36,711 bases of DNA from Rhodovastum atsumiense (GTDB lineage: Bacteria; Pseudomonadota; Alphaproteobacteria; Acetobacterales; Acetobacteraceae): the NCBI GenBank assembly GCA_026225115.1, contig JAMFSE010000073.1, positions 1 to 36,711 of the forward strand. The letters are read 5' to 3'. Every line of letters begins with the position of its first letter. Position 1 is the stretch's first letter. The translations under genes and the position numbers were made by a program. Below, piece after piece: positions 2,475 through 35,269 of this stretch. A model generated the notes under the pieces. It saw nothing but the letters and a program-made list of their open reading frames with translations. It was not told where the DNA came from and searched no databases.

Positions 2475-3911
2475 CTAAGGCGGGGCAAGGATTGCCATTG
2501 GTGCCGGTGATTGGGTAATGGGCAACACGCCGCCGCCGATTTCGGCATAGAGATTGATTGCCGTGATATCCGTGGCGGCTTGCGCATCCGCCGCATCCAT
2601 ATCCGCGGTTTCGCGTTGCCCCTCCACATCGAGCAGATCCGTAAGGTCGGTAAGGCCGCGGCCGAACAATATCTGTGCCGAGTTCAAGGCGCGCAATGCG
2701 GATTGCTGTTCGCGCGTCGCCGCCGCCAGTTCCGCATGCGATGCATTGATCCCGGCCAAAGCAGAGTCGACGGCGCCGATCCCTTCCGTCACAGCTTCAT
2801 GGTAATCCTCGATCCCGGCGGCCAGATTGGCCTGTGCCGCCTTCGCAGTGGCGTAGCGCTGGCCCCAGTCGAATAACGGGATCGTGACACCCGGGCCGCC
2901 CTCGGCGAGCCCTAATTTATTCGGCAGCACGCCCCCGGCCAGAGGGTTCACCAAATTGGCCCCGGCAAAAAGAGAAAGGGAGCCCCCCAGAGTGAATTGC
3001 GGATAGAGATCGGCGGTTGCGATCCCGAGGCTTGCCGCGTCAAGGGCGATGGTCGCTTCCGCCGCCATGACTTGCGGGCGCAGCCGCAAGAGATCGGCGG
3101 GCACCACATTGGGAAGCGAGAGCGGCGCCGGCGGCAACGGTGCGACCGTCAGCAATTTCGAATTCGGTGTGGTCTGACCTTCAAGAACCATGAGGCGCGC
3201 GATATCCGTGTCGATGCCAAGCTGTGCCGCGGGAAGTTTCAGCGACAGCTGGTCTGCGTGATTCTGCGCCCGCGCGACATCAAGATCGCTGGCAATTCCA
3301 GCCTGCGCCTGAATCTTGACGAGATCGGTGATGTGATTGCTGTCCGCGAGCTCGGCCTGCAGCAAACTCAGGCGCTGCTGGTCGGCCCGCAAGCCGATAT
3401 AGGCCTGGGCAATGCCGGCCACCACCGCGACCTGTGCTGCTTGCCGCGCCGCGGTGGCAATGTCCAGCGTTCCGACAACCGCTTTTTTGGTGGCGCTCAG
3501 ACGGCCGAACAAGGGCAGCGTCCAACTCAGCCCGAGCGTGGCCTGGCCGGCAAACTGGGCAGGCGAGGGCTCGGGCAGCGGCTGGCCAATGGAGGAGACT
3601 TTCGCATAGACGATGCCGCCATTTACCGAAGCGGACGGCAGCAGCGAGGCGTTCGCCGATGTGCCGAGCGCACTGGCCGCGGCGATCCGGTACTGTGCCG
3701 CCTGAATGGTGAAATTCTGCGCGATACCCTGGGCCACCAACTGGTTGAGGATTGGGTCCTGAAATTCGGTCCAATAGGTGGAGAGATCGACCGGCGGGCG
3801 GGCAGGTGGGAGGCCGGCGAAGCTGTCCGGCAGTTTCTGGGACAGCGGCGGTTCCACCTGCAGACCGCACCCTGCGAGCAGCAATACCAGCACGCATGCA
3901 AAAACCCGCAT
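2475..3911 (-). CDS. Outer-membrane efflux lipoprotein (NodT/OprM type, TolC superfamily)
   Basis: A 478-residue outer-membrane factor forming the exit duct of a tripartite pump. The N-terminus MRVFACVLVLLLAGCG has a signal peptide with a lipobox, the lipidated residue being Cys15. Two outer-membrane-efflux-protein repeats follow, rich in alanine and glutamine coiled-coil heptads (for example YRIAAASALG, AAQANLAAGI, RETADMDAADAQAATDI), and the length is usual for the NodT family. The ATG shares one base with the RND transporter stop (TGATG at 3909-3913), so the two are translationally coupled. Together with the adaptor (7009-8091) and RND pump it completes a dedicated export system downstream of the NRPS genes. 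Confidence 0.93.
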   Translation of the reverse strand: MRVFACVLVLLLAGCGLQVEPPLSQKLPDSFAGLPPARPPVDLSTYWTEFQDPILNQLVAQGIAQNFTIQAAQYRIAAASALGTSANASLLPSASVNGGIVYAKVSSIGQPLPEPSPAQFAGQATLGLSWTLPLFGRLSATKKAVVGTLDIATAARQAAQVAVVAGIAQAYIGLRADQQRLSLLQAELADSNHITDLVKIQAQAGIASDLDVARAQNHADQLSLKLPAAQLGIDTDIARLMVLEGQTTPNSKLLTVAPLPPAPLSLPNVVPADLLRLRPQVMAAEATIALDAASLGIATADLYPQFTLGGSLSLFAGANLVNPLAGGVLPNKLGLAEGGPGVTIPLFDWGQRYATAKAAQANLAAGIEDYHEAVTEGIGAVDSALAGINASHAELAAATREQQSALRALNSAQILFGRGLTDLTDLLDVEGQRETADMDAADAQAATDITAINLYAEIGGGVLPITQSPAPMAILAPP

Positions 3912-6900
3912 CAGGTGAAATCCTCGGGCACGGTGGATACCAGCCGGCCGAAAACGGGTGCGATTCGATCGGTGAAATTGCCGATCATCACATAGAATAC
4001 CGGCACCAGGATCAGGCTCAGCGCGGTTGAAACAATCAAGCCGCCCATCAGCGCCACAGCCATCGGCAGGCGCAGGGAGGCGCCGGTGCCGCCGACCAGC
4101 GCCACCGGAATCATGCCCGCCACCATGGCCATCGTGGTCATCACCACTGGCCGCGCGCGCCGCAACCCCGCCGCGCGTGCGGCATCCAACCTTCCCAACC
4201 CGTTACGCTCTTCGGCCAAGGCGGCGTCGACGATCAGGATGCCGTTCTTGGTTACGATGCCGAGCAAAGTGAGCAGGCCGATGGACGATGAAAGGTCGAG
4301 CGCGAAACCGCCGATCAGCAACGCCAGCAACGCGCCGCCGATGCTCAGCGGCAGGACCGCGAGAATGGTCAGCGGCTGCAGCCAGTTGCGGAACAGCAGC
4401 AGCATCACGCCCAGCAAAGCGAGCACGCCGCCGCCGAGCGCAAAACCAAGTTGTGAGAACATTTCGTTCATGAATTCGACGGGACCGACCTCGAGCTCGC
4501 TGATCCCGGCGTCGGTCAGGGACCGATAGGCCGGCAGTGCGCGCATCGCCTGCAATGCCTGGCCTATCGTGGTGCCTGGCAGCAGATCCGCGGCGACACC
4601 TTCCATTGAGGTCCGGTCCAACCGCGTGACTTCGGCCGGCCCGGGCTGGACGCCCAGATTGGCGACCAGCGCCAAAGGTACCGCGCCGGTTCCCGCCTGG
4701 ATCGGCAGCTCACCGAGTGCTGCCTCGTTCGCCTCCCCGCTCAGTTCCAAGCGCAATGGAACTTGCTTGCCGTTCTCCGCGAGGACCGGCGCATCCGGCA
4801 GCACGGTGCCGGTGGCAAGCGCCAGCGTGGTTGCGACTTCGCCGGCGCTGACGCCCAGTGTTGAGGCCAATGCGGATTTTGGCGTCACGCTGATTTCAGT
4901 CGCATAGGGCGGCAAGGTGGTGCCGGCGTGCGAGAGACCCGGCAGCAACGCAGTTGCGTCAGCAAACCGCCGCATCGCCTGATCGAGAATTGCCGGGTCG
5001 TCGCCGGTGAAATCCAGTTCGACATCGCGGTTGTCGCCAAAGTTATCCATATGCCAGTCAAGATCCGGTATTTGATCCAGCACCGAGCGGAGTGCGGCTT
5101 CGAATTGCGCCTCAGTGCGCCGGCGGTGCGCGTTGAGAAGAATGATGACCAGAACCTGCTTCTGGTCCGCGAGTTGGGTGGCGCCGCCGGTGAGCGCGAA
5201 GACGCTTTGAATGTCGTGCTGCAGGCTCGGCGCGCGGCGCAATTGCGCGATCACTTTTGCCGCCTGCGCATCGCTGGCTGCAACCGTGCTGCCTGGGGGC
5301 AAGGTGAAGGCAAACTGGCTTTGATCTCGATCCTCAAGCGGCAGGAAACCGCTGGGCAGCTGCGTTGCAATTGCTACGGTGAGGAGCAGAACGCCGCCGG
5401 CCACCGCCAGGCTGATGCGGGGATTGGCAAGCCCATAGTCAAGCCATTTCTGATAGCCGGCCAGCCAGCCCCGGCGCGCCGGCGTTTGCGGCCAGCTGCC
5501 GCCGGGCGATGGCCGCAGGAAAAATGCCGCCAGTACCGGCGTGAAAAGCCGGGCGACGAGGAGCGAGGCGAACACTGCCACCGCCACCGTCAGACCGAAA
5601 GGTTTGAAATACTGGCCGACCACGCCTTGCATCATGCTGACGGGCAGAAAGACCGCGATGATCGCGAAACTCGTGGCCACCACGGCCGGGCCGATTTCAT
5701 CCGCTGCGTCGAGTGCGGCCCGATAGGGGCGCTTGCCCATGGCGATATGCCGCTCGATGTTTTCGATCTCGACAATTGCATCGTCCACCAGAATGCCGAC
5801 CACCAGCGCCAGCGCCAGCAAGGTGATGGAGTTGAGGCTCTGGCCCGCCAGCATCAGCACCAGGAATGCCGGCAGCAAGGCAAGCGGCATTGCCAGCGCC
5901 GCGATCAGCGTGGCGCGCGTATCCCGCAGGAAGAGCCAGACCGTAGCGGTGGCCAGCAGCAATCCCTCGAGCAGCGCTTCAATCGTGGTGTCATAGGTTG
6001 AGCGCGTCGCATCCACGGTGCCGCCGACGCGGGTGAAAACCAGGTGGGGATAGAGCGCCGTCAATCCATCCAACGTGGTCTGCACGGCGCTGCTCAGCCT
6101 GAGCACGTCGGCGCCCGGGGACTGCCATATTTCAAAGGCGACGACCGGCGCGCCGTCCAACCGGGCCAGCGAGGCGGTGGGGGCCGCGGCTTCATGCACC
6201 GAGGCGATGGCGGCAAGCGGTACCGATGTCCCCGGGCCGAGCACCACCGGCAGATCGCCGAGCGAGGCCGCCGAATTATAGCCTGCCAGCGTTTGCACGG
6301 CCGCTTCCTGCTCGCCGAGCGTGCCGATGCCCGCTTGCGGGATGCTGGCGGCGGCGCGGATCTGCTGCTGCAATGCCGGCAGCGTCAGCCCAAGGGCTGC
6401 GAGCCGTGCCGGATCGACGGCGATGTTGATTTCCGGCGTCGGCGCGCCGAGCACCGCCAGCGCGGATACGCCCGGCAGGTCCGAAAGCGTCGTTTTGATA
6501 CGGATCCGCACCAGCTCGCTCAACGCCAGGCGCGAGAGCGAGGGGTCGGCTGCGGCATAGACCAGCGCCGGGCCACCCTGGGCGTCCAGCTTGGTGACGC
6601 TGGGTGGCTGCAGATTGGGCGGCAAGCGGGCCTGGGCGCTGGCGACGGCTGCGCGCACGGCGGCGATTGCCGCATCGGGATTATCGCCGATGCTGAATTC
6701 CACCGTCACCGTGGCAAGGCCCGAGCTGGTCTGCGAAAGCACATGGTGCACGCCCGGGATCGCGGTGACGGCATCCTCCAGCGGCTCGGTGACGGATTGG
6801 CTTATCTCCAGCGGGCTGGCACCCGGATCGACGGCGGCGACCACCGCCACCGGGAAGGAGGTGTCGGGACTGAGCGCGATCGGCAAGGCCCGGAAACCGA

Positions 6901-7012
6901 ATACGCCGCCGATCGCGAGGACCAGGAACAGGACGATGACGGGCATCGGGGCGCGAATCGCATGCGCCGAGATGTTTCTCAGGAAGCCGCCTGGTTCTCT
7001 CGCTTGATTCAA
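3911..7012 (-). CDS. RND multidrug/metabolite efflux transporter, inner-membrane subunit
   Basis: A full-length 1033-residue proton-driven RND transporter of the AcrB/MexB (HAE1-like) type. Helix 4 carries the proton-relay pair Asp410-Asp411 in GILVDDAIVEIENIERH. Two large periplasmic porter/docking loops and the C-terminal helices (LLTLLGIVTKNGILIVDAAL, RRARPVVMTTMAMVAG) are all present. The start is TTG at 7012, chosen because it overlaps the adaptor stop as TTGA, the usual four-base coupling geometry with TTG in place of ATG. It lies between adaptor and outer-membrane factor genes, inside the NRPS operon, so export of the NRPS product is the likeliest job. Its 3' end is duplicated in inverted orientation at 1-305. 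Confidence 0.95.
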   Translation of the reverse strand: MNQAREPGGFLRNISAHAIRAPMPVIVLFLVLAIGGVFGFRALPIALSPDTSFPVAVVAAVDPGASPLEISQSVTEPLEDAVTAIPGVHHVLSQTSSGLATVTVEFSIGDNPDAAIAAVRAAVASAQARLPPNLQPPSVTKLDAQGGPALVYAAADPSLSRLALSELVRIRIKTTLSDLPGVSALAVLGAPTPEINIAVDPARLAALGLTLPALQQQIRAAASIPQAGIGTLGEQEAAVQTLAGYNSAASLGDLPVVLGPGTSVPLAAIASVHEAAAPTASLARLDGAPVVAFEIWQSPGADVLRLSSAVQTTLDGLTALYPHLVFTRVGGTVDATRSTYDTTIEALLEGLLLATATVWLFLRDTRATLIAALAMPLALLPAFLVLMLAGQSLNSITLLALALVVGILVDDAIVEIENIERHIAMGKRPYRAALDAADEIGPAVVATSFAIIAVFLPVSMMQGVVGQYFKPFGLTVAVAVFASLLVARLFTPVLAAFFLRPSPGGSWPQTPARRGWLAGYQKWLDYGLANPRISLAVAGGVLLLTVAIATQLPSGFLPLEDRDQSQFAFTLPPGSTVAASDAQAAKVIAQLRRAPSLQHDIQSVFALTGGATQLADQKQVLVIILLNAHRRRTEAQFEAALRSVLDQIPDLDWHMDNFGDNRDVELDFTGDDPAILDQAMRRFADATALLPGLSHAGTTLPPYATEISVTPKSALASTLGVSAGEVATTLALATGTVLPDAPVLAENGKQVPLRLELSGEANEAALGELPIQAGTGAVPLALVANLGVQPGPAEVTRLDRTSMEGVAADLLPGTTIGQALQAMRALPAYRSLTDAGISELEVGPVEFMNEMFSQLGFALGGGVLALLGVMLLLFRNWLQPLTILAVLPLSIGGALLALLIGGFALDLSSSIGLLTLLGIVTKNGILIVDAALAEERNGLGRLDAARAAGLRRARPVVMTTMAMVAGMIPVALVGGTGASLRLPMAVALMGGLIVSTALSLILVPVFYVMIGNFTDRIAPVFGRLVSTVPEDFT

Positions 7013-8091
7013 TTGGCCGGTCTTACAGTCTGTCCATCGCGCAGGCTGGCGCCATTTTGCATCACGATGACGTCTCCGGATCTGATGCCCGAGGCGATTG
7101 GCACCAGGCTGGAGGCATTGCCTGGGACGGTGGCCAAGGTCACCGGCTGAAATTGGGCGACGCCATGGTTCACCAGGACGACGTGAAACCCGTCTGCATC
7201 CGCGACCAGGGCGGTCTGCGGCACCGCCAGTTGCATCTGGCTGCCAAGGCGGATGGCGGCTTCTACAAAGGCGCCGGGGCGCAGCGCCGGATTTGGTTCC
7301 AAGGCGGCGCGCAACGATCCCAGATGCGTCATGGCGTCGATTTCAGGATCGGCGCCGATCACCGTGCCGTGCGCCGTGCCGCTGGGCAATGCGAGCTCCA
7401 CCGCCATCCCCGGGGCAATCAGCGCCACCTGGTCCTGCGGAATCGTGGCGCGGAAAATCAAGCCCTGGTCGCCGATCAGGCGGAACAACGGCGGACCGGC
7501 AGGGGCGGCGAGCTGCCCTGGCTCCGCGTTGCGTAAAGCGACAACGCCTGCCATCGGCGCGGTGATGGTGGCATTGGCGAGCTGCGCCTGGGCGGACGCC
7601 AGATTGGCGCGGGCGACCTGGATCTGGGCTCTCTGGGCCGTGGCATCGGCGCCGCGCTGGTCGACCTGCTCGGGGGCGATCGCGCCCGTTGCGCCCAGCC
7701 CGGCAACCCGGTCGTACGCCTGCGCCGTGGCCGCGCCATTTGCCTGGGCGACCAGCAATTGCGCCTGCGCCGCCGCCACCGCGGGCGCCAGCTGGCTGGT
7801 GTCAAAGCTGGCCAGCGTCTGGCCGGCAACCACATGGGCGCCGCTCTCGACCGCGACATTGGCGAGCGTGCCGGCCTCGCGGGCGCTGATAGCCACCTGC
7901 ACCGCCGGCTCGACGGTGCCCGCAGCCGTGAGTTCGGTCGATAAGGGTTGCGCGGTCACGGTCATCACCCGCACCAGCGGCGCCGGGTCCGGATAGGCCA
8001 CGCCGCTGGCGCGCCAGTGCAGGATGAGAACCATCGCCACCAGTGCCGCGGCAATCACCAGCGCCGGTCGAAACAGTGTTTTTGCAGACAT
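7009..8091 (-). CDS. RND periplasmic adaptor (membrane fusion protein, HlyD/AcrA type)
   Basis: A 360-residue adaptor linking an RND pump to its outer-membrane duct. It begins with a membrane anchor (LFRPALVIAAALVAMVLILHW). A split lipoyl/barrel-sandwich domain follows (AREAGTLANVAVESGAHVVAGQ and ANATITAPMAGVVALRNAEPG) around an alpha-helical hairpin rich in Ala and Gln, then beta-barrel and membrane-proximal domains. The ATG at 8091 is chosen over a start at 8235 because the hydrophobic anchor follows it directly and the upstream extension overlaps the phosphopantetheinyl transferase gene. The seven-base gap from that gene's stop and the four-base TTGA overlap with the RND gene put it in one operon with both. 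Confidence 0.93.
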   Translation of the reverse strand: MSAKTLFRPALVIAAALVAMVLILHWRASGVAYPDPAPLVRVMTVTAQPLSTELTAAGTVEPAVQVAISAREAGTLANVAVESGAHVVAGQTLASFDTSQLAPAVAAAQAQLLVAQANGAATAQAYDRVAGLGATGAIAPEQVDQRGADATAQRAQIQVARANLASAQAQLANATITAPMAGVVALRNAEPGQLAAPAGPPLFRLIGDQGLIFRATIPQDQVALIAPGMAVELALPSGTAHGTVIGADPEIDAMTHLGSLRAALEPNPALRPGAFVEAAIRLGSQMQLAVPQTALVADADGFHVVLVNHGVAQFQPVTLATVPGNASSLVPIASGIRSGDVIVMQNGASLRDGQTVRPAN

Positions 8092-8098: not shown

Positions 8099-8776
8099 TT
8101 ATCGCCCCCCGCCCGGTCCGAAGGCAATGGCCACGGTGAAACCGGCGTGAGAATGGCGCTCCAACCGCCAGCCCGCCGGATCGCCGAAGGATTCCGGCGC
8201 CGCGATAAGCCGCGTCGCGCAAGGCGAGAGTTCAAGCTGCCTGAAGTTGAGACCGAGGCCCGAGCCTTCGGCTTTCGACAACGCCTCCTTCAGCGTCCAT
8301 AGATCGATGGGCGCGATCTGGCTTGGCTGGCCATCGCAGGAATATTCGGCGCGGGCGGAAATCGCCGCCACCACTTCCGGTTCGATATGGCGCGATAACG
8401 GTTCGGCATCGATACCGATGCGGCCGCCTTTGCTTACCGTTGCAGCGGCATAACCGTTGCAATGGGTGAGGCTGATATCGATGTCCGGCGCGCCGGCAAG
8501 CTTCGGCTTTCCGCCCGCTCTATCGGTATAGAACCGGAACGATCTGGCGGGTCTGCCGGTTGCCGCGGCCAGGACCAGACGGCGCAGGCCATGCGCGACG
8601 ATGGCATCCCGGCGCGCCAGCGGGCGGCGCAGGCGGTCGATCGATGCCTGTTCACCGGCATCGAGAACATCCTCGAGTTGCGACAGGGTCTGCGCTTCGA
8701 GATCGGCGGTTGGTAGGCCGCTCCATAAATACGGCGCTTGCGTCGTTTGACCACCAAGGCTCAAGCCAGCTCTCAT
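8099..8776 (-). CDS. 4'-phosphopantetheinyl transferase, Sfp type
   Basis: This 225-residue enzyme moves 4'-phosphopantetheine from coenzyme A to the conserved serine of carrier domains. Its likely client is the T domain (Ser1006) of the NRPS two genes upstream. Both family signatures are visible: GRIGIDAEPL with the Mg-binding pair Asp123 and Glu125, preceded by DISLTHCNGYAAATVS, and LWTLKEALSKAEGSGLGL (160-177) with Trp160, Lys163, Glu164 and Lys168. The length is normal for Sfp-type rather than AcpS-type enzymes. Its ATG overlaps the glycosyltransferase stop as ATGA, so it is co-translated with the biosynthetic genes. The presence of a dedicated activating enzyme makes the pathway self-contained. 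Confidence 0.94.
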   Translation of the reverse strand: MRAGLSLGGQTTQAPYLWSGLPTADLEAQTLSQLEDVLDAGEQASIDRLRRPLARRDAIVAHGLRRLVLAAATGRPARSFRFYTDRAGGKPKLAGAPDIDISLTHCNGYAAATVSKGGRIGIDAEPLSRHIEPEVVAAISARAEYSCDGQPSQIAPIDLWTLKEALSKAEGSGLGLNFRQLELSPCATRLIAAPESFGDPAGWRLERHSHAGFTVAIAFGPGGGR

Positions 8777-10086
8777 GCGACGGCTTGTACCGGCGCCTGT
8801 TGTTCAGCGAGGGCTGCCTCGATGGCACCGATGGCATCCACTTCACGCAATTGCTCTGCCATGCTGAGGGCGCGCTCGCGATAGCCGGGATCGGCAAAAA
8901 TTTCGGTAACGGCGGCAGCGAGCAATGCCGCATCCGGCCGCCCGGTGGCGGCGTTGATGCCGACGCCGGCATAGGCGACGCGTGTGGCGATTTCCGGTTT
9001 TTCCTCGGAATCGCCTGCGATCAGCAGCGGCACGCCATGCTGCAGCGCCAGCAGCACGCCCCCGAAGCCGCCATTGGTGATCAATAGATCCAGATGCGGA
9101 AATATCGCCGCATAGGGGATGAACGGGACAACGCGCGCGTTCGGCGGCGCCATGGCCAAAACCGGCTGCGGATCGGCGCCGCTGGTGATGGCGATGACCA
9201 GCGCGTCGCTTGACGCCAGCGCCCGCAGCGCCGGCATGACCAGCTGGTCGAGATCGGCGCTGGCGATGGTGCCCTGCGTGATCAGGATGATTTTACGGCC
9301 GGCGGCGCGGGCCTGCGCAATCTCATCCCACCAAGGCGGGGGTGCGAGATTTGGCGCCGGCGCCGGCAGCGCGCCGATGAAGCGGATACTGCCGGGCAGC
9401 GCCCGCTTATATTCCAGCGCCGCGACGCCGAGTTGAAAATACACATCCGGCAGGGTGATGACCGCGTCCGATATGAACGCCTGCAGCTTCGGCGCGCCAG
9501 ATGCCTTCAGGGCATTGTTGATATAAGTCTGTACACCCGAAAATACGTGGTGGTGCATGTAACGGTTGACGGATTGGTTGCGGGCGCGTTGCTGATCGGT
9601 ACGCGCCGGCGGCAGGCCGGAGCCATAGAATGCCGTTTCGGGTCCGGAAAGTGTGAGGCAGGAAATGCCGAGATGCGCGATCCTCGGGCGGGCTTCGGGC
9701 GGCCCCAGCAGCAGTGGCAGGGTGCCGAGGAACAGCATGTCCGCGAGGATGGCGTCGGCCGCGAAATCGCGCATGATATCGCACAGGCCCTGATGCTGGG
9801 GGCCGAGCGAGTCTGCGAAAAGATGCTGGATGCCCCAGAGCATTTGCGCAGGACCCGGCGGCAGCGCCGCGCGTTCCGGAAAACGCGCGTCGATGTCGCG
9901 ATAGTCGATATCGATTTCCGGCGCCAAAGGGACGAAGCGGGCGCCGGCGCGTTCGACGCTGGCGCGGAACAGGCTGCCGGTATGGATGACAACCTCATGG
10001 CCGCGCGCGACCAGCCCGGCGGCGGCGGCAATAACCGGGTCGGCATGGCCCGGCATTGGGGTGGCGGCGGCGAGGTATTTTGCCAT
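8773..10086 (-). CDS. Glycosyltransferase, GT1/MGT-like (NDP-sugar-dependent)
   Basis: A 437-residue GT-B-fold glycosyltransferase of the macrolide/UDP-glucosyltransferase-like group. The N-terminal acceptor domain starts MAKYLAAATPMPGHADP. The C-terminal donor domain has LITQGTIAS at 268-276 and the sugar-nucleotide motif ITNGGFGGVLLALQHGVPLL at 336-355, then GDSEEKPEIATRV at 358-370. Classical GT1 enzymes have His in THGG; here Asn338 replaces it, as in a subset of bacterial members. Donor sugar and acceptor cannot be read from sequence. It starts five bases after the NRPS stop and overlaps the phosphopantetheinyl transferase by four, so glycosylation of the NRPS product, before export by the adjacent pump, is the natural inference. 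Confidence 0.9.
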   Translation of the reverse strand: MAKYLAAATPMPGHADPVIAAAAGLVARGHEVVIHTGSLFRASVERAGARFVPLAPEIDIDYRDIDARFPERAALPPGPAQMLWGIQHLFADSLGPQHQGLCDIMRDFAADAILADMLFLGTLPLLLGPPEARPRIAHLGISCLTLSGPETAFYGSGLPPARTDQQRARNQSVNRYMHHHVFSGVQTYINNALKASGAPKLQAFISDAVITLPDVYFQLGVAALEYKRALPGSIRFIGALPAPAPNLAPPPWWDEIAQARAAGRKIILITQGTIASADLDQLVMPALRALASSDALVIAITSGADPQPVLAMAPPNARVVPFIPYAAIFPHLDLLITNGGFGGVLLALQHGVPLLIAGDSEEKPEIATRVAYAGVGINAATGRPDAALLAAAVTEIFADPGYRERALSMAEQLREVDAIGAIEAALAEQQAPVQAVA

Positions 10087-10091
10087 TGCCG

Positions 10092-13000
10092 TTACGCCTC
10101 CAGAACCAGATCGCCGACCCGTATTGCCGGATCCTCGACGGCGCCGGCGAGCAGGGCCACTAGCTGGGTGACCAGCCGCGCCGCGGTTTCGGGCGCGAAC
10201 AAATCGTTGCGGTATTCCAGCCAGCCGGCGATGCCCGCCGGCTTGCCGGCCCCATCGCGCATTTCGCTCAGCATGAAGGTGAGCTCGTAGCGCGCGGCGC
10301 CGAGCCAGACCGGCTCCGGCGTTACGCTGAGATCCGACATGTCGAGCTTGACGCTGGCAAGGTTCTGGAAATTCAGCATCACCTGGTAGAGCGGGTGCCG
10401 GGGACCGTCCGTGCTGGCGCCGAGCGCGGTGGCGACCTGCGCGAACGGCAGATCCTGATGCGCATAGGCGGCGAGGTTGAACTGGCGGACCCGGGCGACC
10501 AGTTCGGTGAAGCTGGGATTGCCGGAAACATCGGTGCGCAGCACCAGTTGGTTGAAGAAACTGCCAATCATCGGGTCGAGCGCTGCATCCAGCCTGGCGG
10601 CGACCGGGCTGCCGATTGGGATATCCTCGCCGGCTCCTTCGCGGCTCAGCAAGGCGGCGATGCCGGCCTGCAGCACCATAAACAGGCTGGCGCCCGCGCC
10701 GCGCGCGAGTTTGACAAGTTTCGCGTGCAGTTCAGGGTCGATTGCGAGCGGCGCGACGCCGCCTTCAAACCGGATTACGGGCGGGTAGGGATGATCGACC
10801 GGCAGGCTGATGGTCTTTGGCATGCCGTCCAGGGCCTGCGTCCAGAACTCGAGCTGGCTCGAAAGTCCTGCGGTCTCGTCGCGCTGCCACAGCGCGTAAT
10901 CGGCATATTGCAGTGGCAATGGCTGCCAGGCGGGCGCGTCGCCGGCCAGGCGCGCGGCATAGGCCATCGCGACGTCGCGCATGAGCGGCCCAAGGGACGC
11001 GCCGTCGGCGGCGATGTGATGCACCAGCATCAGCAACACATGGTCTTCCGGCGCCAGTTCCCAGAGATGCATGCGCACCGGAATTTCCCGCGTGACATCG
11101 AAGGTCAACCGCGCCGTGGCGTTGATGGTTTCATGCAGCGCTGCTTGCGTCAGTGCAACTGGCGCCAGGTTGAGCCGCGCATCCTCAGGGTCGAGGATCA
11201 CCTGCGCTGGCTCGCTTTCGCTGACGTCGATCAGCGTGCGCAGGCTTTCATGGCGCTCCAGAACGTCGTTCGCCGCATCCTCGAAGGCGGCGGCATTCAA
11301 CGGTCCGCGCAGCCGCAGGCCGAGGTTCATGTTATAGGCGGCGCCGACGCCGGGCATCTTCCAGACTTCGAACATCGACAATTGACTGGTGCCGAGCGGA
11401 ATTCTCTCCGGCCGTAGCCGCCGGGTGATCGGCGAGCGGCCGAATTCGGAACGTCCGACCAATGTGGCCAGACCGGCGATGGTGGTGGTCTCGAACATGG
11501 CGGTCAGCGGCAGATCGACGCCGAAAGTGTCGCGGATTTTTGCGACGATTTTCGCAACGACCAGGGAATCCGCGCCCAGTTCGAAAATATTCGCGTCGAT
11601 ATCGAGGTCGGGGAGGCCGAGCAGGTCGCAGAACAATGAGACCAGAACTTCCTGCGTCGGTGTGCGGTCGAACTGGCTGGAGGCCGAAACACTGACCGGA
11701 ACGGGCAGCGCATTGCGGTCCAGTTTGCCGGCCGGCGAGCGCGGCAATTCCGGCAGGACAACATAGGTGGCGGGCACCATGTATTCCGGCAGACGCAGCG
11801 CCAATGCGCGTTTCAGCAGCACCGGGTCCAGCATGACATGGGGCGAGTCCGGCACGACGAAACCAACCAGCCGGCCGTCGCGCGCGGTGACCGCCGCCTG
11901 GGCAACGCCCGGTTCGGCGGCAAGCAGCGTTTCGATTTCGCCAAGCTCGATGCGGAAACCGCGCAGCTTGACCTGGGTATCGGCGCGGCCGATGAAATGC
12001 AGCGCGCCGTTGGTGAATTTGGCGAGGTCGCCGGTGCGATACATGCGGCTGCCGGGTGGCCCGTACGGATTGGCAACGAAGCGTTCGGCGTTCAGGCCGG
12101 GCCGGTTGAGATAGCCGCGCGCCAGCCCCGCACCGCCGATATAGAGATCGCCGATGACATTTTCCGGTACCGGTTCCAGCCCGGAATCCAGGACGTAGAT
12201 TTGGGTTCTGGCGATCGGCCGGCCGACCGCGGGCGGGCCGGCGGCATCGATTTTCTGCAGCGTCGACCAGATCGTCGTCTCGGTCGGCCCGTACAGGTTG
12301 ATCGCTTCGGCGCCGATGGTGAACAGCTGGCTGGCCAGGCCCTCCAGCAGCGCTTCGCCGCCGGTCAGGATCCGCAGGGAGCGCAAGGCTTCGGCCTCGC
12401 CGCCGGTGAGGCTGTCCCAGAGCGATGGGGTGGCCTGCATGATGGTGGCGCCGCTGGCGGCGATCAGCCGCGCCAGGCTTGGCGGGTGGCGCAACAGCGC
12501 GCGCGGCGCCATGATGGTGCGCGCGCCGGCGAGCAAGGGCAGAAAAAGTTCCAGCGCCGCGATGTCGAAGCTGATGGTCGAGACGGCCAGCATCCGGTCG
12601 GCCGGATCGAGCGGGATTTGTTCTGCCATCGAACCGAGAAAATTCGCGAGATTGGCGCGGGTGAGGACCACGCCTTTCGGTTTGCCGGTGCTGCCCGAAG
12701 TATAGATCACGTAAGCCGGGGATTCCGGTGGCCGCACGACATCCGGTGTGCTGCTGGCCAAGCCATCCAGCGCGGCGTCGTCGAGAATCAGGATTGGATG
12801 GCCGGCCAGCGCGGCGGCGGTTTCGGTTGCCGCCATGATCAGCAGCGGCGTTGCATCCTCCGCCATGGCCTGCAGCCGCGCCACCGGCAGATCCGGGTCC
12901 AGCGGCAGATAGGCGGCGCCGGATTTCAGGACTCCGATGAGGGTGGCCAGCATGTCGATGCCGCGCGGCAGGCACACGCCGATGATTTGCTCCGGCCCGG

Positions 13001-14582
13001 CGCCGCGCGCCAGCAGCGCGTTGGCGATGCGGTTGGCGCGCGCATCGAGCCCGCGATAGGTGATGACGCTGAACTCATAGCCGGCCGCCACCGCCCAGGG
13101 TGTCTCGCGCACCTGGCGCTCGAAATCCTCTGGCATGAAGCGCAATGCCGGATCCGGTGCCGGCGGCGAACCGGCGGCAAAAATCCTAGCGCGCTCTGCA
13201 TCGTCCAGGAGATTGATGCGGCCGATCGGCAGCGTCAGGTCGCCGGCGATTTCCCGCAGCAGGCGCTCGATCCGTTGCGCGTGCGAGACCAGCTCGTCAC
13301 CGCTATAGATCTCCGGGCTGGCGTCGATATCGATATGCACCGGTCTGCCGGTGCCGCGGTCATAGACGAATATCGCCAGATCCTCGATGGAGCCATTCGA
13401 CAGATTGCTGACCGAGGTTGGGGCTTCGCCGAAACGCAGATCATAATCGAACGGCTCGATATTGATGATCGAGGTGAAGAGATGCCGGCCCTCGCCGATC
13501 AGGTTGAGATCCCGCCGCAGATCTTCATAACGATAACGCTGGTGGCGCAAGGCTTCGCGCACGCGCCTTGCGACCTGATGGACAATTTCGGTGACGGTGT
13601 CGGTCGACTTCATCCGCAGCCGCAGGGGCACGGCGTTGGCCAGCATGCTGGGAATTTTGCGCATTCTGCCGTTGGTGCGCGCCGTTACCGGCAGGCCGAG
13701 CACGATGTCCTCGGCGCCTGTCATGCGAAAGAAATAGATTGCGACCGCCGCGATCATCAGCTGCGGGAAACTGCCCTGGGCGGTCTTTGCGGCGGTCCGC
13801 AATTCATCGATGAAATCGGCCGGCAGCACCGTCGTACGCCGCAGCATGCCGCCCTGCAGCGACGGCCGGAAATGGCCCAGGCTGACGGGAGAGGGCTTGT
13901 CGGCGAATGCGGTGGTCCAGTATTTTCGCTCGGATGCGAAACGATCTGTCTGGCGATAGGCATGGTCCTCGTCTACCAGATCTTCCAGGGAACCAAAGCA
14001 GATGCGTTCCGGGGTCAGGCCGGCTGCATAGGCGGTGTAAAGCTCGGCGAGGCGGCGGGCGACCAGGCCGCCGGAGAAGCCATCGCCGACGATGTGATGG
14101 CTGCGGTGATACCAGAGATAATGATCGTCCTTCACCTTGAACAGGCCGCTCGACCACAGGCAATCATGCAGCGGGTCGTGGGGCAGTTGATATTCCACCA
14201 TCATCCAGGCAACCGCGGCGGCCCGCGGGTCGGGCTCGGCGGAATAATCCATGAACGGGATCAGCCCGCGAATCTCGGGATTAATCGATTGCATGGGCTC
14301 GTCGGCGATTTCGGTGAATTGCAACCGGGTTGTTGCCGCCTCAAGCGTGACATGCGCGAGTGCGGCGTAGAACGCGTCAACGTCCACCGCGCCATGGATT
14401 TCAATCAGCTCCGCGAGATTGAGGACCGCGTGCTTTGGGCCCAGGCGCTGTGCGAACCACATGCCGCGCTGGGCGTTGGTGAGCGGAAACCAACCCTCTT
14501 CGCCCGGCGGAGACGGCGTTACGATCAGCTCGGCGGCAGGAACTTCACGTTGCAATAATCGGGAAAAAGCATCGTCGTTCAT
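10092..14582 (-). CDS. Single-module nonribosomal peptide synthetase C-A(Gly)-T-C
   Basis: A 1496-residue NRPS. Condensation domain 1 spans about 30-455 (HHIVGDG, His162-His163...Asp167-Gly168). The adenylation domain is about 480-960 (YTSGSTGKPKG at 627-637, NLYGPTE at 762-768, YRTGD at 848-852, Lys953 in AGKLD). The carrier domain has LGADSL, with Ser1006. Condensation domain 2 is about 1060-1490 (HHIAADG, 1188-1194; GSFFNQLVLRTD). My manual reading of the ten pocket residues is D673 I674 L677 Q716 L739 G741 L763 I771 W772 K953, DILQLGLIWK, a code I know for glycine, as in DhbF. No thioesterase or reductase domain follows, so release may be catalysed by the terminal C domain on a free nucleophile. 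Domain 1 resembles the EntF-type C domain (YLWYHRSHHIVGDGFS). The ATG overlaps the MbtH stop as ATGA. Confidence 0.96.
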   Translation of the reverse strand: MNDDAFSRLLQREVPAAELIVTPSPPGEEGWFPLTNAQRGMWFAQRLGPKHAVLNLAELIEIHGAVDVDAFYAALAHVTLEAATTRLQFTEIADEPMQSINPEIRGLIPFMDYSAEPDPRAAAVAWMMVEYQLPHDPLHDCLWSSGLFKVKDDHYLWYHRSHHIVGDGFSGGLVARRLAELYTAYAAGLTPERICFGSLEDLVDEDHAYRQTDRFASERKYWTTAFADKPSPVSLGHFRPSLQGGMLRRTTVLPADFIDELRTAAKTAQGSFPQLMIAAVAIYFFRMTGAEDIVLGLPVTARTNGRMRKIPSMLANAVPLRLRMKSTDTVTEIVHQVARRVREALRHQRYRYEDLRRDLNLIGEGRHLFTSIINIEPFDYDLRFGEAPTSVSNLSNGSIEDLAIFVYDRGTGRPVHIDIDASPEIYSGDELVSHAQRIERLLREIAGDLTLPIGRINLLDDAERARIFAAGSPPAPDPALRFMPEDFERQVRETPWAVAAGYEFSVITYRGLDARANRIANALLARGAGPEQIIGVCLPRGIDMLATLIGVLKSGAAYLPLDPDLPVARLQAMAEDATPLLIMAATETAAALAGHPILILDDAALDGLASSTPDVVRPPESPAYVIYTSGSTGKPKGVVLTRANLANFLGSMAEQIPLDPADRMLAVSTISFDIAALELFLPLLAGARTIMAPRALLRHPPSLARLIAASGATIMQATPSLWDSLTGGEAEALRSLRILTGGEALLEGLASQLFTIGAEAINLYGPTETTIWSTLQKIDAAGPPAVGRPIARTQIYVLDSGLEPVPENVIGDLYIGGAGLARGYLNRPGLNAERFVANPYGPPGSRMYRTGDLAKFTNGALHFIGRADTQVKLRGFRIELGEIETLLAAEPGVAQAAVTARDGRLVGFVVPDSPHVMLDPVLLKRALALRLPEYMVPATYVVLPELPRSPAGKLDRNALPVPVSVSASSQFDRTPTQEVLVSLFCDLLGLPDLDIDANIFELGADSLVVAKIVAKIRDTFGVDLPLTAMFETTTIAGLATLVGRSEFGRSPITRRLRPERIPLGTSQLSMFEVWKMPGVGAAYNMNLGLRLRGPLNAAAFEDAANDVLERHESLRTLIDVSESEPAQVILDPEDARLNLAPVALTQAALHETINATARLTFDVTREIPVRMHLWELAPEDHVLLMLVHHIAADGASLGPLMRDVAMAYAARLAGDAPAWQPLPLQYADYALWQRDETAGLSSQLEFWTQALDGMPKTISLPVDHPYPPVIRFEGGVAPLAIDPELHAKLVKLARGAGASLFMVLQAGIAALLSREGAGEDIPIGSPVAARLDAALDPMIGSFFNQLVLRTDVSGNPSFTELVARVRQFNLAAYAHQDLPFAQVATALGASTDGPRHPLYQVMLNFQNLASVKLDMSDLSVTPEPVWLGAARYELTFMLSEMRDGAGKPAGIAGWLEYRNDLFAPETAARLVTQLVALLAGAVEDPAIRVGDLVLEA

Positions 14583-14794
14583 GAAATCGTTTCCGCGGTG
14601 GCGCCGGCCCGCTCGGTGCCGGTTCCCGCCCCAGTCGCGTCAATCCAGGCCAGCACTTCGGCGCGCGGCGCCGGCCCGCGGTGGATCTCCCAACCGGATG
14701 GCACATCGATATAGGTTGGCCAAATGGAATACTGCAAATCTGCGCTTATCAATGTCAGATAAAAGGCCTCTTGGTCATCAAAGGGATTCGGCAT
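14579..14794 (-). CDS. mbtH: MbtH-like NRPS accessory protein
   Basis: A 71-residue partner protein that binds adenylation domains and often is needed for their folding or activity. The core is clear: NPFDDQEAFYLTLIS, LQYSIWPTYIDVPSGWEIHRGP, with conserved Trp25 and Trp35. The C-terminal family motif (usually ...NWTDMRP) is missing; the chain instead ends in a Gly/Ala/Thr-rich tail after AEVLAWIDA, so the third conserved tryptophan is displaced (Trp50) or lost. It has a strong GGAGG ribosome site just upstream and is the first gene of the minus-strand operon, overlapping the NRPS start by four bases. Pairing with the downstream adenylation domain is expected. Confidence 0.9.
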   Translation of the reverse strand: MPNPFDDQEAFYLTLISADLQYSIWPTYIDVPSGWEIHRGPAPRAEVLAWIDATGAGTGTERAGATAETIS

Positions 14795-15385
14795 TTTACC
14801 TCCAGAGTATCATTCAAGCCCTGTGGCTTCGGAGTGCCTCCTGCATCAAACCGTCAGCCAATGTTACGAACCTCTGATGCCATAACATCATGCTGGCGGG
14901 AAAATCCAGTGAATTAGACAAGACAATGGGCAAATTTAAAGTCCATGCTGAAGGGCGCGCCCAAGCGTCAACAACGTTTTGCTAAAGAAATACTTGGTTT
15001 GTTTATCTGTCGTGCAACATTTGATATTTTCTAATGCAGTTTAAAATGGTTACGATAACGCATACACTTTAAGGTTGCTTAGATGGGTAATATTTTTGTC
15101 TCTATATAGAGACGAAATTTTATAAAACCGGAACCAAGCGGCTTGCGGTGCTGAGCAGTCACCAAATGTTACGACGATGACTTTACGATAGAGGACTTCG
15201 CAATTTTGATATTTTCCTTTATTACTTTTGTTTCGAAACCTAACGACACTTGGACGCCAGCGACTCAAAGGATCTGATTTATGAGCGATTTTTCCGGCGG
15301 TCCGAACGCAACCGGTCAAACCAGCGAATTTGCGCCAATCAGCCCCTGCCAAAGCCAACCGCGAAATTGGGCCTGAAGGGCGGCG
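14795..15385. promoter_or_regulatory. Divergent AT-rich control region of NRPS operon and acylase gene
   Basis: These 591 bp lie between the divergent MbtH and acylase starts and are clearly AT-richer than the genes beside them. They hold a perfect 16-bp palindrome at 15098-15113, three copies of AATG(G)TTACGA at 14860-14869, 15045-15055 and 15165-15174, and the short palindrome GGGCGCGCCC at 14953-14962. GTTACGATAAC at 15049-15059 is itself an inverted repeat. I saw no clear Fur, Irr or RirA site by eye and no certain -35/-10 pair. A minus-strand open frame at 15050-15358 has no recognisable family or codon character and is not called. Confidence 0.6.
15098..15113. promoter_or_regulatory. 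Perfect 16-bp palindrome, candidate operator
   Basis: GTCTCTATATAGAGAC is self-complementary over 16 bases; allowing one wobble, the symmetry extends three more bases each side. It sits near the middle of the divergent control region, about 300 bp from the MbtH start and 270 bp from the acylase start. Size and symmetry suit a dimeric repressor of the TetR, MarR or GntR type. No such regulator gene is in the window, so the partner is unknown. Confidence 0.45.
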
Positions 15386-17581
15386 ATGCCGTCAATCATT
15401 GATCGTGCTGCCGGCGTCGCTGGACTGCTTGGGTTCGTCTGGCGCGCTGCCAGGCTTCCGGCGCCCGGGACGCTTACGCTGGACGACCGGCTGAACAACC
15501 TGCCGCTTGATGGCGTGCCGATCACCGCCGCCGTGGAGATCCATTGGGACAAGCACGCAATTCCTTTCGTTAGGGCAGAAAACCTGCCTGACCTTGCGAC
15601 CGGCCTGGGTGTGGTTCATGCGCATCTGCGCCTCGGCCAATTGGAAATTATGCGCCGGCTTGCCCAGGGGCGCATTTCCGAGATGATCGGCGCCTTCGGA
15701 CTGGAATTTGACGTGGCGCTCAGGACCGTCGATCTCTGCCGGGCGGTGCCGGAGATCATCGCGATGCTGCCGGAGGAGTCCGCGATCTGGGCTGCAGGCT
15801 TTCTCGCGGGGATCAATCATGTCATTGCGCATGCGCCGGCGCTGCCCCTGGAGTTCCAGCTGCTGGGCTTTGAGCGCGAGCCCTGGACCATGGTCGATCT
15901 GTTCTCGCTGGCCCGGCTGACCAGCGCCGACATGACCTGGATGCCGGCATTGAAACTTTTGCAGGCGCGTGAGCGGATGGCGCCGGCGGATTGGGCGGCG
16001 TTATGGCCGGAGCTTCTGAACAGTGGCCTGCCGACCCCGAAAGGCATTACCGCCGCGATCGCCCGCGGCAGCAATTCGGCCGCTATCGCCGGGAGCAGGA
16101 CGGCGTCGGGCGCCGCCATCATCGCTTCCGATCCGCATGTCGGCCTGCAGCTGCCCAGCATCTGGCTGGCGTGCGGCCTGTCTGCGCCAGGGATGAACGC
16201 CGCCGGGCTGATGATCCCCGGCGTGCCCTATGTGGCGCTCGGCCGAAACGAGAAAATTGCATGGGGGGGCACCAATTTGCACGCCGCAAGCTCGGTCTTT
16301 GTCGACCTTAAGGCGGAAACCGAGCCTGACATAAGGGTCCGGGAAGTTGCAATCGCGGTGCGAGGCGGCGCCGCGCGGCGGGTTAAAATTCGCGATAGCC
16401 GGTTCGGCCCGGTGCTGTCGGATGTCAAGCTTGCCGGCTTGAAACATCCAACGGCGCTCGGTTGGGTTGGCCATCGGCCGAGTGATGAGCTGACAGCGAT
16501 GCTGGCGATCCACCGGGCCGCCGATTTCGCAACGGTTCAAGCGGCACTCGGCGATTTTGCCGTCCAGGGCTACAGCTTCACCTATGCCGACGAGAGCGGG
16601 CGTGTCGGGATTGTGCGCGCTGCCTTGGTGCCCGCACGGCCGGCAAAACCGGAGGATCTGCTCGAACGCGCCGCGGTGATGGATGAACTGACTTCCCTCG
16701 CGGCGGTGACCGGGGTGTTTGATCCGGAGCAAGGCTACGTGGTCTCGGCCAACGAAGATCCGCAGACCGCGGTGCAATCCGGATTTTTCTTCGCGCCGCC
16801 CGACCGGGCGGAACGGCAGACGACGCTGCTGAACAGAACCGGTGTTACGCGGCGCGATATGGAGGCGCTGCAAAGGGACGTAGCGTCTGCCGGCGCGCTG
16901 GCGCTGCGCGATGCGCTGGCGGCGCGGGCAACGCATTTTGGACTGGGCTTGCCGCAAGCCGTGCTGGACTGGGATGGATGTTACGATGAAGCTTCAATCG
17001 GGGCCCTGGCCTTCGAGGTGATGCTGGCCGAAGCGGCCGTAACGGTCGCCGGCAAGGCGGTGCTGGCGCCAGTGTCCGCGGTTTGGACCAGCCGGGCAAT
17101 GATTGCCTCCAGGCTGTTGGAGGCGCCTGATGCCTTGTTGAAGCGTGCCTTGTCGCGTGGGACCAAGCGAGCGGCGCAAGCAGTTTTAAAAAACCGAAAC
17201 TGGGGTGGGGCGCATGTGCTGCGCTTGGCGCATCTACTTGCCCTCCTGCCGATTGTCGGCCGGAAGTTTGGTCTGCAGGTTTTCGGCGTGCCCGGCAGCA
17301 ACGACACAATATACAAGACCGGCCACGACCCGGTGGGTTTGGCGCGCAAGAATGGCCGGCACCGGGTGACCTATGGCGCTTCCGCCCGCCACCTTGCCGA
17401 TTTCGCCGATCGGGACGCTAATTTTGTCGTGATATTGGGCGGCCAGGATGGTTGGATCGGCAGTGTGAACGCGACTGATCAAATTCCACTTTGGCGCGAG
17501 GGCAGATATTTGCGCCTACCGCTCACCCTTGACCCCGCAATGACGCATTTTACCAGGCTGACGAAGCTCAAAGCGAAATGA
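15386..17581 (+). CDS. Penicillin acylase family Ntn hydrolase (PvdQ/AHL-acylase-like)
   Basis: A 731-residue member of the penicillin amidase family, enzymes that hydrolyse amide-linked acyl chains from beta-lactams, N-acyl homoserine lactones or siderophore precursors. They mature by self-cleavage before a nucleophile at the start of the beta chain. Here ARGSNSAAIAGSRTASGA marks the site, so Ser229 should be the catalytic N-terminal residue after cleavage from Gly228. The usual ASDPHVGLQLPSIW follows, with an alpha-chain stretch before it. A clear signal peptide is not obvious, though residues 8-20 are weakly hydrophobic; PvdQ itself is periplasmic. It is the divergent neighbour of the NRPS operon, which suggests trimming of an N-acylated product or self-protection; quorum quenching is an alternative. 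Confidence 0.88.
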   Translation: MPSIIDRAAGVAGLLGFVWRAARLPAPGTLTLDDRLNNLPLDGVPITAAVEIHWDKHAIPFVRAENLPDLATGLGVVHAHLRLGQLEIMRRLAQGRISEMIGAFGLEFDVALRTVDLCRAVPEIIAMLPEESAIWAAGFLAGINHVIAHAPALPLEFQLLGFEREPWTMVDLFSLARLTSADMTWMPALKLLQARERMAPADWAALWPELLNSGLPTPKGITAAIARGSNSAAIAGSRTASGAAIIASDPHVGLQLPSIWLACGLSAPGMNAAGLMIPGVPYVALGRNEKIAWGGTNLHAASSVFVDLKAETEPDIRVREVAIAVRGGAARRVKIRDSRFGPVLSDVKLAGLKHPTALGWVGHRPSDELTAMLAIHRAADFATVQAALGDFAVQGYSFTYADESGRVGIVRAALVPARPAKPEDLLERAAVMDELTSLAAVTGVFDPEQGYVVSANEDPQTAVQSGFFFAPPDRAERQTTLLNRTGVTRRDMEALQRDVASAGALALRDALAARATHFGLGLPQAVLDWDGCYDEASIGALAFEVMLAEAAVTVAGKAVLAPVSAVWTSRAMIASRLLEAPDALLKRALSRGTKRAAQAVLKNRNWGGAHVLRLAHLLALLPIVGRKFGLQVFGVPGSNDTIYKTGHDPVGLARKNGRHRVTYGASARHLADFADRDANFVVILGGQDGWIGSVNATDQIPLWREGRYLRLPLTLDPAMTHFTRLTKLKAK

Positions 17582-19175: not shown

Positions 19176-19177
19176 TC

Positions 19178-19297
19178 GGCAGTTTTCTGTTCAGCGGCTT
19201 CGACCCGTTGGAAGACTTGATCCAATATGGCGGAGAACTGCTGCCCGTGGTACACCAAGCGGTAGCAAACCGTCCGCAGCGCGATATCGCCGGCTGA
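19178..19297 (+). pseudogene. C-terminal remnant of an SsuD-type alkanesulfonate monooxygenase
   Basis: Reading frame 2 from 19178 to the TGA at 19295-19297 encodes SFLFSGFDPLEDLIQYGGEL, then LPVVHQAVANRPQ. This matches the C-terminus of SsuD-type enzymes and aligns with the intact copy at 31313-32410 (TFLIRGFDPLEDATDYGREL, then IPLVRREIARRE). No start or upstream SsuD sequence is present; the match begins three bases after the stop of the preceding monooxygenase gene. It is therefore a deletion scar of a second ssuD-like gene, removed together with most of its body. Confidence 0.8.
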
Positions 19298-19427
19298 CCA
19301 GGTAGAAATCCGGCGCGCTTTGCGGATTGGCGCTGCCGCGAACACTCACGACCTGCCGGTATCGGAATCTGTTGTGCCTTGCAGCTTGGTCCGCTAGCTT
19401 CCGGCCAGGCAGCGGAAAGGCTTTTGC

Positions 19428-20309: not shown

Positions 20310-20408
20310 GCTCATGAATTGCTGCCGAAATTCTTATTATTCGAGGCGCCAAAATTCATCTAAAAATATAAAATTGGCTCTTTTGAAAACAGGCAAGGAA
20401 ACCAGCAA

Positions 20409-21089: not shown

Positions 21090-21105
21090 AGAAATTTGGG
21101 CAATA

Positions 21106-21141
21106 AAAAAGGCCTCCAGTTTTGCAACTGGAGGCCTTTTT
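21106..21141. terminator. Bidirectional rho-independent terminator
   Basis: A perfect 16-bp stem (AAAAAGGCCTCCAGTT at 21106-21121) with a TTGC loop and its complement at 21126-21141. A-tract and T-tract flank the GC-rich stem, so it can stop transcription on both strands. It sits between the convergent ends of the peroxiredoxin-like gene (plus) and the TauD-type gene (minus). Confidence 0.93.
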
Positions 21142-21153
21142 GCCGCCCAAGGT

Positions 21154-22011: not shown

Positions 22012-22152
22012 GGTGAGTTCCTTTTGGGTGTACTGCCAGCGGCCCAATTCAGCGGCACGTTAATGGCGTTTCCACAAATTGAAGAAATTAAATCTGTATG
22101 TCCAATTCGAATAACTCACGAATCATATAGAAATATATTATACATTATAGAA

Positions 22153-23136: not shown

Positions 23137-23187
23137 AATGATATCCAGTGGCGTTGGTGATTTAGCGCGGCTTTGGCCGCGTTGCCG

Positions 23188-25510: not shown

Positions 25511-25560
25511 GATCCCGCTCGCCAGCGATTATCATATTTTCTAAGTTTGGAGTGTTAACC

Positions 25561-26481: not shown

Positions 26482-26484
26482 GCC

Positions 26485-26913: not shown

Positions 26914-26924
26914 AGGACAATCCC

Positions 26925-27356: not shown

Positions 27357-27367
27357 AGCGCGCACAA

Positions 27368-31295: not shown

Positions 31296-31312
31296 TCGAA
31301 AGGAGATACCCA

Positions 31313-33377: not shown

Positions 33378-33390
33378 GGCTAAAACCTTT

Positions 33391-35256: not shown

Positions 35257-35269
35257 AAGAAGATCTTTG

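Follow-up and report, generated by a model that had tools for sequence, protein, structure and literature searches.

Single-module nonribosomal peptide synthetases (NRPSs) built from a condensation, an adenylation, a carrier and a second, terminal condensation domain (C-A-T-C) are represented by FkbP and RapP of FK506 and rapamycin biosynthesis, which use pipecolate and finish a polyketide, with the terminal C domain responsible for release. Here we describe an enzyme that resembles them at the level of domain order, with a terminal C domain. It is encoded in a stretch of 36,711 nucleotides (hereafter the window) from the soil alphaproteobacterium Rhodovastum atsumiense, which represents one entire contig (C120) of a 3.67-Mb draft genome, and it shares an operon with genes for an MbtH-like protein, a family 1 glycosyltransferase (GT1), a 4'-phosphopantetheinyl transferase (PPTase) and a resistance-nodulation-division (RND) efflux pump. 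We propose, with moderate confidence, that this operon is a self-contained pathway for a small glycosylated N-acyl-glycine compound, an amide or an ester, that would be exported by the pump.

Judged by description, the nearest functional parallel that we found in print is the Acinetobacter A1S_0112-0119 operon, which encodes one glycine-activating four-domain NRPS with a thioesterase, a PPTase and an RND-family protein, and whose product is acinetin 505 (PMC5376624). Compared on that descriptive basis alone, the two systems share one glycine module, a PPTase of their own, an RND-superfamily pump and a lipopeptide-like product. However, the Acinetobacter operon carries a terminal thioesterase, an acyl carrier protein (ACP) and an acyl-CoA dehydrogenase, and the accessible parts of the report name neither a glycosyltransferase (GT) nor an acylase (PMC5376624), whereas the window has a terminal C domain, a GT1, an MbtH-like protein and an acylase. 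Similarly, DhbF of bacillibactin biosynthesis, represented in the Protein Data Bank (PDB) by entry 5U89, resembles the window protein in its glycine A domain with a D/Q/W pocket, its MbtH helper and its A-T-C order; DhbF has a second module, while the window protein stops after its second C domain (C2), and the window cluster adds a GT, a pump and an acylase and shows no dihydroxybenzoate ligase over the cut-off. The glidonin synthetase and its acylase GdnD offer a third comparison, with a starter C domain, C-domain release onto a free amine and an N-terminal nucleophile (Ntn) acylase acting on a lipopeptide (PMC10587159). Glidonins, however, are dodecapeptides whose acylase gene lies elsewhere, the accessible text names no GT for them, and their release C domain is followed by A*, T and thioesterase domains, unlike C2 of the window (PMC10587159). 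The parts of the window operon are therefore all of known kinds, while their combination, the recurrent pairing of a glycine NRPS with a GT1 and the replacement of a thioesterase by a C domain look new. As far as its texts were accessible, the open-access literature, to which the search was confined with cluster databases outside its scope, yielded no matching pathway or paper on this cluster.

The MbtH, NRPS, GT1 and PPTase genes, followed by those for the periplasmic adaptor (membrane fusion protein, MFP), the RND protein and the outer-membrane channel (outer-membrane factor, OMF), form one tightly spaced operon on the minus strand, with the following components:

14579..14794, minus strand: MbtH-like protein, A-domain helper, 71 aa (PF03621, 2.3e-18; orthologs at the equivalent position in L022 and L023, the loci of two relatives)
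10092..14582, minus strand: NRPS, 1496 aa, C-A-T-C (Pfam Condensation twice, AMP-binding and PP-binding; orthologs 65-66% identical over the full length)
13203..14492, minus strand: C1, starter (lipoinitiating) condensation domain, residues ~31-460 (best PDB match the RzmA starter domain, Cs; HHIVGDG intact)
11688..13139, minus strand: A domain, code DILQLGLIWK, residues ~482-965 (D673/Q716/W772 spaced as DhbF D656/Q699/W755)
11448..11660, minus strand: T (carrier) domain, LGADS, residues ~975-1045 (PF00550)
10107..11402, minus strand: C2, terminal condensation domain, proposed release domain, residues ~1061-1492 (HHIAADG intact; best PDB match DhbF C2, 5u89)
8773..10086, minus strand: GT1-family glycosyltransferase, 437 aa (EryCIII-like_C, 1.2e-17; MGT family below its cut-off; orthologs 68-69% identical)
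8099..8776, minus strand: Sfp/HetI-like PPTase, 225 aa (PF01648, 3.5e-10; orthologs 55-58% identical, equivalent position)
7009..8091, minus strand: RND periplasmic adaptor (MFP), likely start ATG 8091 (TIGR01730, 2.4e-57, above its cut-off; orthologs 60-63% identical)
3911..7012, minus strand: RND inner-membrane pump, 1033 aa (ACR_tran, 1.4e-191; orthologs 64-67% identical)
2475..3911, minus strand: outer-membrane efflux channel, NodT/TolC type (TIGR01845, 8.2e-67, above its cut-off; orthologs 60% identical)

Neighboring genes overlap by 4 bp (MbtH/NRPS, GT/PPTase and MFP/RND) or 1 bp (RND/OMF), or are separated by 5 bp (NRPS to GT) and 7 bp (PPTase to MFP, if the MFP starts at ATG 8091). A first-pass annotation had described the MbtH, C-A-T-C NRPS, GT and PPTase genes as a coupled operon linked to a full RND pump, and the coordinates, Pfam matches and tight junctions confirm both parts of this description. 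All four genes that it named belong to the cluster, but it missed a further member, a divergent penicillin-acylase gene at 15386-17581. The MbtH of the cluster is the sole MbtH match in the window genome. The PPTase contains the 4'-phosphopantetheinyl transferase superfamily domain (PF01648), with the HetI and Npt models below cut-off, and the GT carries the EryCIII-like/UDPGT C-terminal donor domain of GT1 enzymes (PF06722, 1.2e-17; PF00201, 1.5e-8). The scanned cluster proteins included neither an acyl-activating enzyme nor an ACP.

Matches to the GT at E 1e-40 or better occur in three of the 38 genomes of the genus, namely the window genome, G013 and G020, all of them drafts (G020 is 77% complete). 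Both relatives carry the genes for MbtH, NRPS, GT, PPTase, MFP, RND, OMF and acylase on a single strand in identical order (L022 in G013, L023 in G020). The operon is not a chance reading, since its gene content and order recur in two other species whose NRPSs are 65-66% identical to that of the window. A scan with two peptide patterns returned 20 loci, of which two were these true relatives and 18 were weak A-domain matches that were dropped; in a tblastn search of plasmids, every one of 2542 records fell below 60% identity. The orphan status assigned in the first-pass annotation consequently does not hold, given two full relatives and 19 glycine-coded one-module NRPS loci, 16 of them with a GT1. 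L022 also holds a second GT1 gene (4635-5999) between the outer-membrane channel and the acylase; none was seen in the window or L023.

The pocket code DILQLGLIWK, previously read by hand as indicating glycine, was re-read from the translation with the same result and has identical letters at the aligned positions of both same-genus orthologs, the pocket positions being mapped with GrsA motif anchors. We take it to be a glycine-type code. The translation and the alignment of the orthologs both show the core motifs of the A and T domains and the HHxxxDG motifs of both C domains. The closest PDB match to the A-T-C stretch is 5U89; for the A domain alone, LgrA entries rank at the top with a score that sums two A domains, and 5u89 comes next. 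Residues D673, Q716 and W772 are spaced 43 and 99 residues apart, identical to the D/Q/W residues of DhbF. Entry 5U89 comprises DhbF A1-PCP1-C2 with a glycine analogue (Gly-AVS) and an MbtH-like protein, and its pocket includes D656, Q699 and W755 (PMC11253843). Specificity of the window A domain for glycine is supported at this level of comparison.

C1 is the first domain of the assembly line and is nearest to known Cs domains. A profile built from the three ortholog C1 domains matched, among PDB entries, RzmA Cs (7c1k/7c1h) at 312 bits, ObiF1 at 208 and CDA Cs at 201, with EntF (171), VibH (106) and Txo2 (~99) lower. RzmA (PDB 7C1H and others) is therefore its closest solved relative, although the window enzyme is a single module and RzmA belongs to a long line. 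RzmA variants with a shorter side chain at R148 take an acyl chain of C8 or C10 in place of C2, and the Y138A/M143A/R148G variant is reported to prefer C14, with chains up to C16 (PMC7804268). The equivalents of Y138/M143/R148 are S161/G166/G171 in the window and S/I/G in the relatives; the R148 residue linked to the natural C2 chain of RzmA (PMC7804268) is thus a glycine in the window enzyme. Across the 19 glycine-coded loci described below, this column holds Gly in 18 and Ala in one, which gives an open acyl pocket. By its sequence, C1 is a starter-type (lipoinitiating) domain with such a pocket, and an acyl chain of medium to long length is predicted because its pocket residues lie near those of the RzmA triple mutant.

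An aromatic, siderophore-like starter acid in place of a fatty acid seems to us improbable. C1 does resemble ObiF1 and EntF, which accept dihydroxybenzoyl groups, the NRPS has sub-cut-off matches to the MxcG and EntF models, and aryl-CoA could serve as donor. Against this, the best aryl-type domain trails RzmA Cs by 104 bits, and a dihydroxybenzoate-AMP ligase is over the cut-off in none of the three genomes, with weaker matches in each, in a search covering this ligase and no other dihydroxybenzoate gene. A siderophore of the bacillibactin/enterobactin type was rejected: there is no second module with a thioesterase, and TIGR02275 exceeds its cut-off in none of the three genomes (weaker matches in three).

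The fate of the acyl-glycyl group would depend on C2, whose best PDB match is the DhbF C2 in 5u89 (427 bits). The first-pass annotation had offered no function for this second C domain. As in amide-synthase-like terminal C domains, it occupies the terminal position with an intact HHxxxDG and without a downstream module. A Condensation family search found exactly two C domains per genome in the window genome, G013 and G020, all of them in this NRPS, while the window genome has two NRPS-type A domains over the cut-off and G013 and G020 have one each. In the glidonin system, the C domain of the last module releases the peptide onto free putrescine, and standalone VibH and SchH act similarly (PMC10587159); the free-standing C domain OaaC couples small amines to fatty acyl groups (PMC13142362). 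C2 is proposed as the release domain because neither the window genome nor either relative yielded a further C domain, and release onto a soluble nucleophile is proposed because of the glidonin and OaaC precedents. C2 thus probably releases the acyl-glycine onto a free nucleophile.

Alternatively, C2 could be merely left over from a two-module enzyme like DhbF, with a free N-acyl-glycine as the product, liberated by slow hydrolysis or by another thioesterase and then glycosylated. This reading, which we consider unlikely, draws on the best PDB match of the A-T-C stretch, the DhbF A1-PCP1-C2 fragment, on the cousin loci L113 and L118, which hold proteins of 2101 and 2106 aa with two A domains, and on the thioesterase-bearing cousins, which would yield free acyl-glycine; it is countered by the HHxxxDG motif and the many invariant positions kept in three species at ~65% identity, together with the same protein end. 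Decay of a multi-module NRPS was also considered and is unlikely because the end point and the motifs are conserved in the three species. There is a slimmer chance still that C2 acts with a second NRPS module in trans and that the operon is part of a longer peptide pathway. The resemblance of C2 to elongation-type C domains, which require a carrier-bound acceptor, would suit such an arrangement, as would the one further NRPS-type A domain of the window genome, but the two relatives lack a second NRPS A domain over the cut-off (G020 being incomplete), and the three genomes yielded no C domain beyond those of this NRPS.

That further A domain lies on contig C77 (L024:9317-13177) in an unusual 1286-aa fusion of three Mur ligase domains (residues 36-458) with an NRPS A-T-thioesterase portion, adjoining DUF218, GH3 and GT2/GT4 proteins. 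Another genome of the genus, G004, encodes a 1299-aa protein (L025:3582-7481) in which an A domain is combined with hexapeptide repeats and a weak carrier domain; it may be like poly-lysine-type synthetases.

Profile searches of 385 class, 397 family and 398 phylum genomes placed this NRPS in a wider context, with 53 loci and the window (54 rows) examined. The rows cover 45 of the 46 family genomes with strong NRPS matches, including that of the window (G799 was left out); second hits in G544, G664 and G488 were left out, that in G488 lying within the same open reading frame (ORF), and the other class and phylum hits, long multi-module ORFs, fall mostly outside the survey. L074 and L075 stand outside the 54-row table, although the L075 region is included as L158. 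A glycine-type code, DILQ[L/M]G[L/V/M]IWK, appears in 19 of the 54 rows (lacking its final letter in the truncated L073), all 19 with the C1 motif HHxxxDGFxGG (one has AG). In a tree with eight other rows, the 19 fall on one side of a 100/100 branch; the tree is midpoint-rooted, and calling them a clade requires a root outside the group. The codes of the remaining rows are DVWHFSLVDK in 25 (L131-L151, L153-L155 and L158), one-module NRPSs none of which has a nearby GT1 match, and others in 10. We take DVWHFSLVDK to be a serine-type code.

A GT1 gene lies beside the NRPS in 16 of the 19 glycine-clade loci, compared with none of the 35 others (Fisher p 4.6e-11). Counted by genus, with labels assigned by hand (that of L121 is a placeholder that leaves the count unaffected), the pairing is found in 8/9 glycine-clade genera and 0/16 others (p 8e-6), p-values that overstate independence because of relatedness among the surveyed rows. 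Without the five loci used for the GT profile, the comparison stands at 11/14 versus 0/35, although distant GT1s near other NRPSs may be missed because that profile derives partly from glycine-clade GTs. The cousin GTs form one subfamily (38-95% identical among the pairs listed). Matches to the window GT at E 1e-40 or better occur in 8 of 397 family genomes, its own included; in G664, the only one inspected besides the window, the window-type GT lies ~0.85 Mb from the glycine-clade NRPS.

The 13 other alphaproteobacterial loci with a glycine NRPS and a GT1 (L070, L114-L116, L119, L120, L124-L129 and L157) resemble the window in their C-A-T group (100/100), code type and adjacent GT1, and some also carry an RND or ABC exporter or an acylase. 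For instance, profile hits in L070 give the order PPTase-NRPS-GT1-MFP-RND (the MFP hit is weak, 45 bits), an ABC ATPase and permease follow the GT1 in L119, L120, L124 and L125, and L116 reads GT1-NRPS-acylase. These cousins differ from the window in their thioesterase end (12 scanned) and GT1 subfamily, and no MbtH hit was found in the cousin stretches scanned. In all, 14 of the 14 glycine-clade NRPSs outside the genus that were scanned by Pfam end in a thioesterase (16 in total; L157 was unscanned and L073 is cut by its contig). The family theme is a glycine-specific lipoinitiating module with a GT1, and in the window genus the cousins' thioesterase is replaced by a C domain. Glycosylation is assigned to the product because two different GT1 types adjoin the same kind of NRPS, which argues for a role of the GT1 in product tailoring.

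The remaining member of the cluster is encoded on the opposite strand:

15386..17581, plus strand: penicillin-acylase-family Ntn hydrolase, Ser229 after Gly228 (PF01804, 3e-136; orthologs 62-64% identical)

The acylase gene ends the operon in both relatives, behind the pump, and is assigned to the cluster because of this position; the acylase of L116, beside a glycine NRPS, is 44% identical to that of the window. The window protein has Gly-Ser229-Asn (GSN) at the expected cleavage site, the beta chains of PDB structures align from residue 229, and its closest PDB relatives are D-succinylase and glutaryl-7-ACA acylase. It is not a PvdQ equivalog (NF051460, 24.9 bits against a cut-off of 950). 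Acylated glidonins inhibit their producer, and deacylation by a PvdQ-like acylase could be a detoxification (PMC10587159); by analogy, we infer a role in self-protection or maturation for the window enzyme.

A broader form of this idea makes both GT and acylase self-resistance factors, the GT masking and the acylase destroying an acyl-glycine agent inside the cell. We regard it as doubtful but worth keeping in view, since the GT matches macrolide-type GT families (below every cut-off), no signal peptide is seen on the acylase and glidonins may be detoxified by deacylation (PMC10587159). The GT is coupled directly behind the NRPS, however, and GT1s of two subfamilies recur beside glycine-clade NRPSs, which fits tailoring better than self-resistance.

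The proposed pathway to a glycosylated N-acyl-glycine would proceed as follows. The PPTase would arm the carrier domain, and the A domain, aided by MbtH, would load glycine. C1 would then attach a fatty acyl group of medium to long length, probably taken from acyl-CoA, to the nitrogen of this glycine. C2 would release the product by transferring the carrier-bound acyl-glycyl group to a small, soluble amine or hydroxyl compound that acts as nucleophile. The GT1 enzyme would attach a sugar, the MFP-RND-OMF pump would export the product, and the Ntn acylase would remove the acyl chain for self-protection or maturation. The gene order, its conservation, the glycine code, the intact C2 motif, the recurrent GT1 pairing and the acylase link are read from the sequences themselves. 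We infer the nucleophile, the sugar with its attachment site and the cargo of the pump. The glycosylated acyl-glycine product suggested earlier is accordingly plausible as a general idea, while its structure is unproven.

Several points weigh against this pathway, including the limits of the pairing statistics given above. No metabolite is known. The whole C-A-T stretch also resembles the MxcG and EntF models, below their cut-offs. By its sequence, C2 is an ordinary elongation-type C domain, a kind that normally uses a carrier-bound acceptor, and a partner module may be absent from the assemblies because the three genomes are drafts and G020 is only 77% complete. The predicted acyl length depends on three pocket positions transferred from RzmA. 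The window GT belongs to a different GT1 subfamily, with weak or local similarity to the cousin GTs, and three of the 19 glycine-clade loci (L071, L072 and L073) show no GT1, one of them being cut by a contig end. The acylase gene lies on the other strand in the window, and its product has no clear signal peptide by hydropathy, the only measure applied, so that periplasmic action is unproven.

A more far-reaching version, which we offer as speculation with little weight behind it, treats the glycine one-module NRPS with a GT1 as the mark of an undescribed, widespread alphaproteobacterial class of glycosylated lipo-glycine compounds. In the window genus, C2 would join the acyl-glycyl group directly to a sugar, an amino sugar or a glycoside made by the GT, and the acylase would act as a coupled off-switch. 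We know of no condensation domain that catalyzes such a reaction.

The surroundings of the operon include one candidate control region:

14795..15385, no strand assigned: divergent intergenic region, GC 0.45, candidate control region, with the palindrome GTCTCTATATAGAGAC (15098-15113) and two 17-nt direct repeats (14853, 15158)

The acylase gene starts ~590 bp from the operon, across this GC-poor region. The palindrome GTCTCTATATAGAGAC has no exact match in the loci of the two relatives, the core of the 17-nt repeat has one upstream copy in L022 and none in L023, and the scan of the cluster proteins revealed no regulator gene. On the same strand as the pump operon and 63 bp downstream of it lies a PEMT/ICMT-type methyltransferase gene (1833-2411), without a match among the called ORFs of L022 and L023. 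The right flank (17823-36709) encodes three luciferase-like monooxygenases, TauD, an NMT1-type binding protein, an ABC ATPase and permease, a peroxiredoxin, a metallo-beta-lactamase-fold protein, TonB/ExbB/ExbD and a TonB receptor, and looks like an organosulfur uptake island.

These findings turn one odd operon into a testable class of small, complete single-module pathways that require few genes and occur in nine genera among the surveyed genomes. Within the class, a thioesterase or a C domain can serve for release and an RND or ABC system for export, and the GT1s are likewise interchangeable. Because such short pathways can be expressed whole, the product, the release chemistry and the specificity of the exporter are open to direct determination; the terminal C domain provides a minimal system for amide or ester release.

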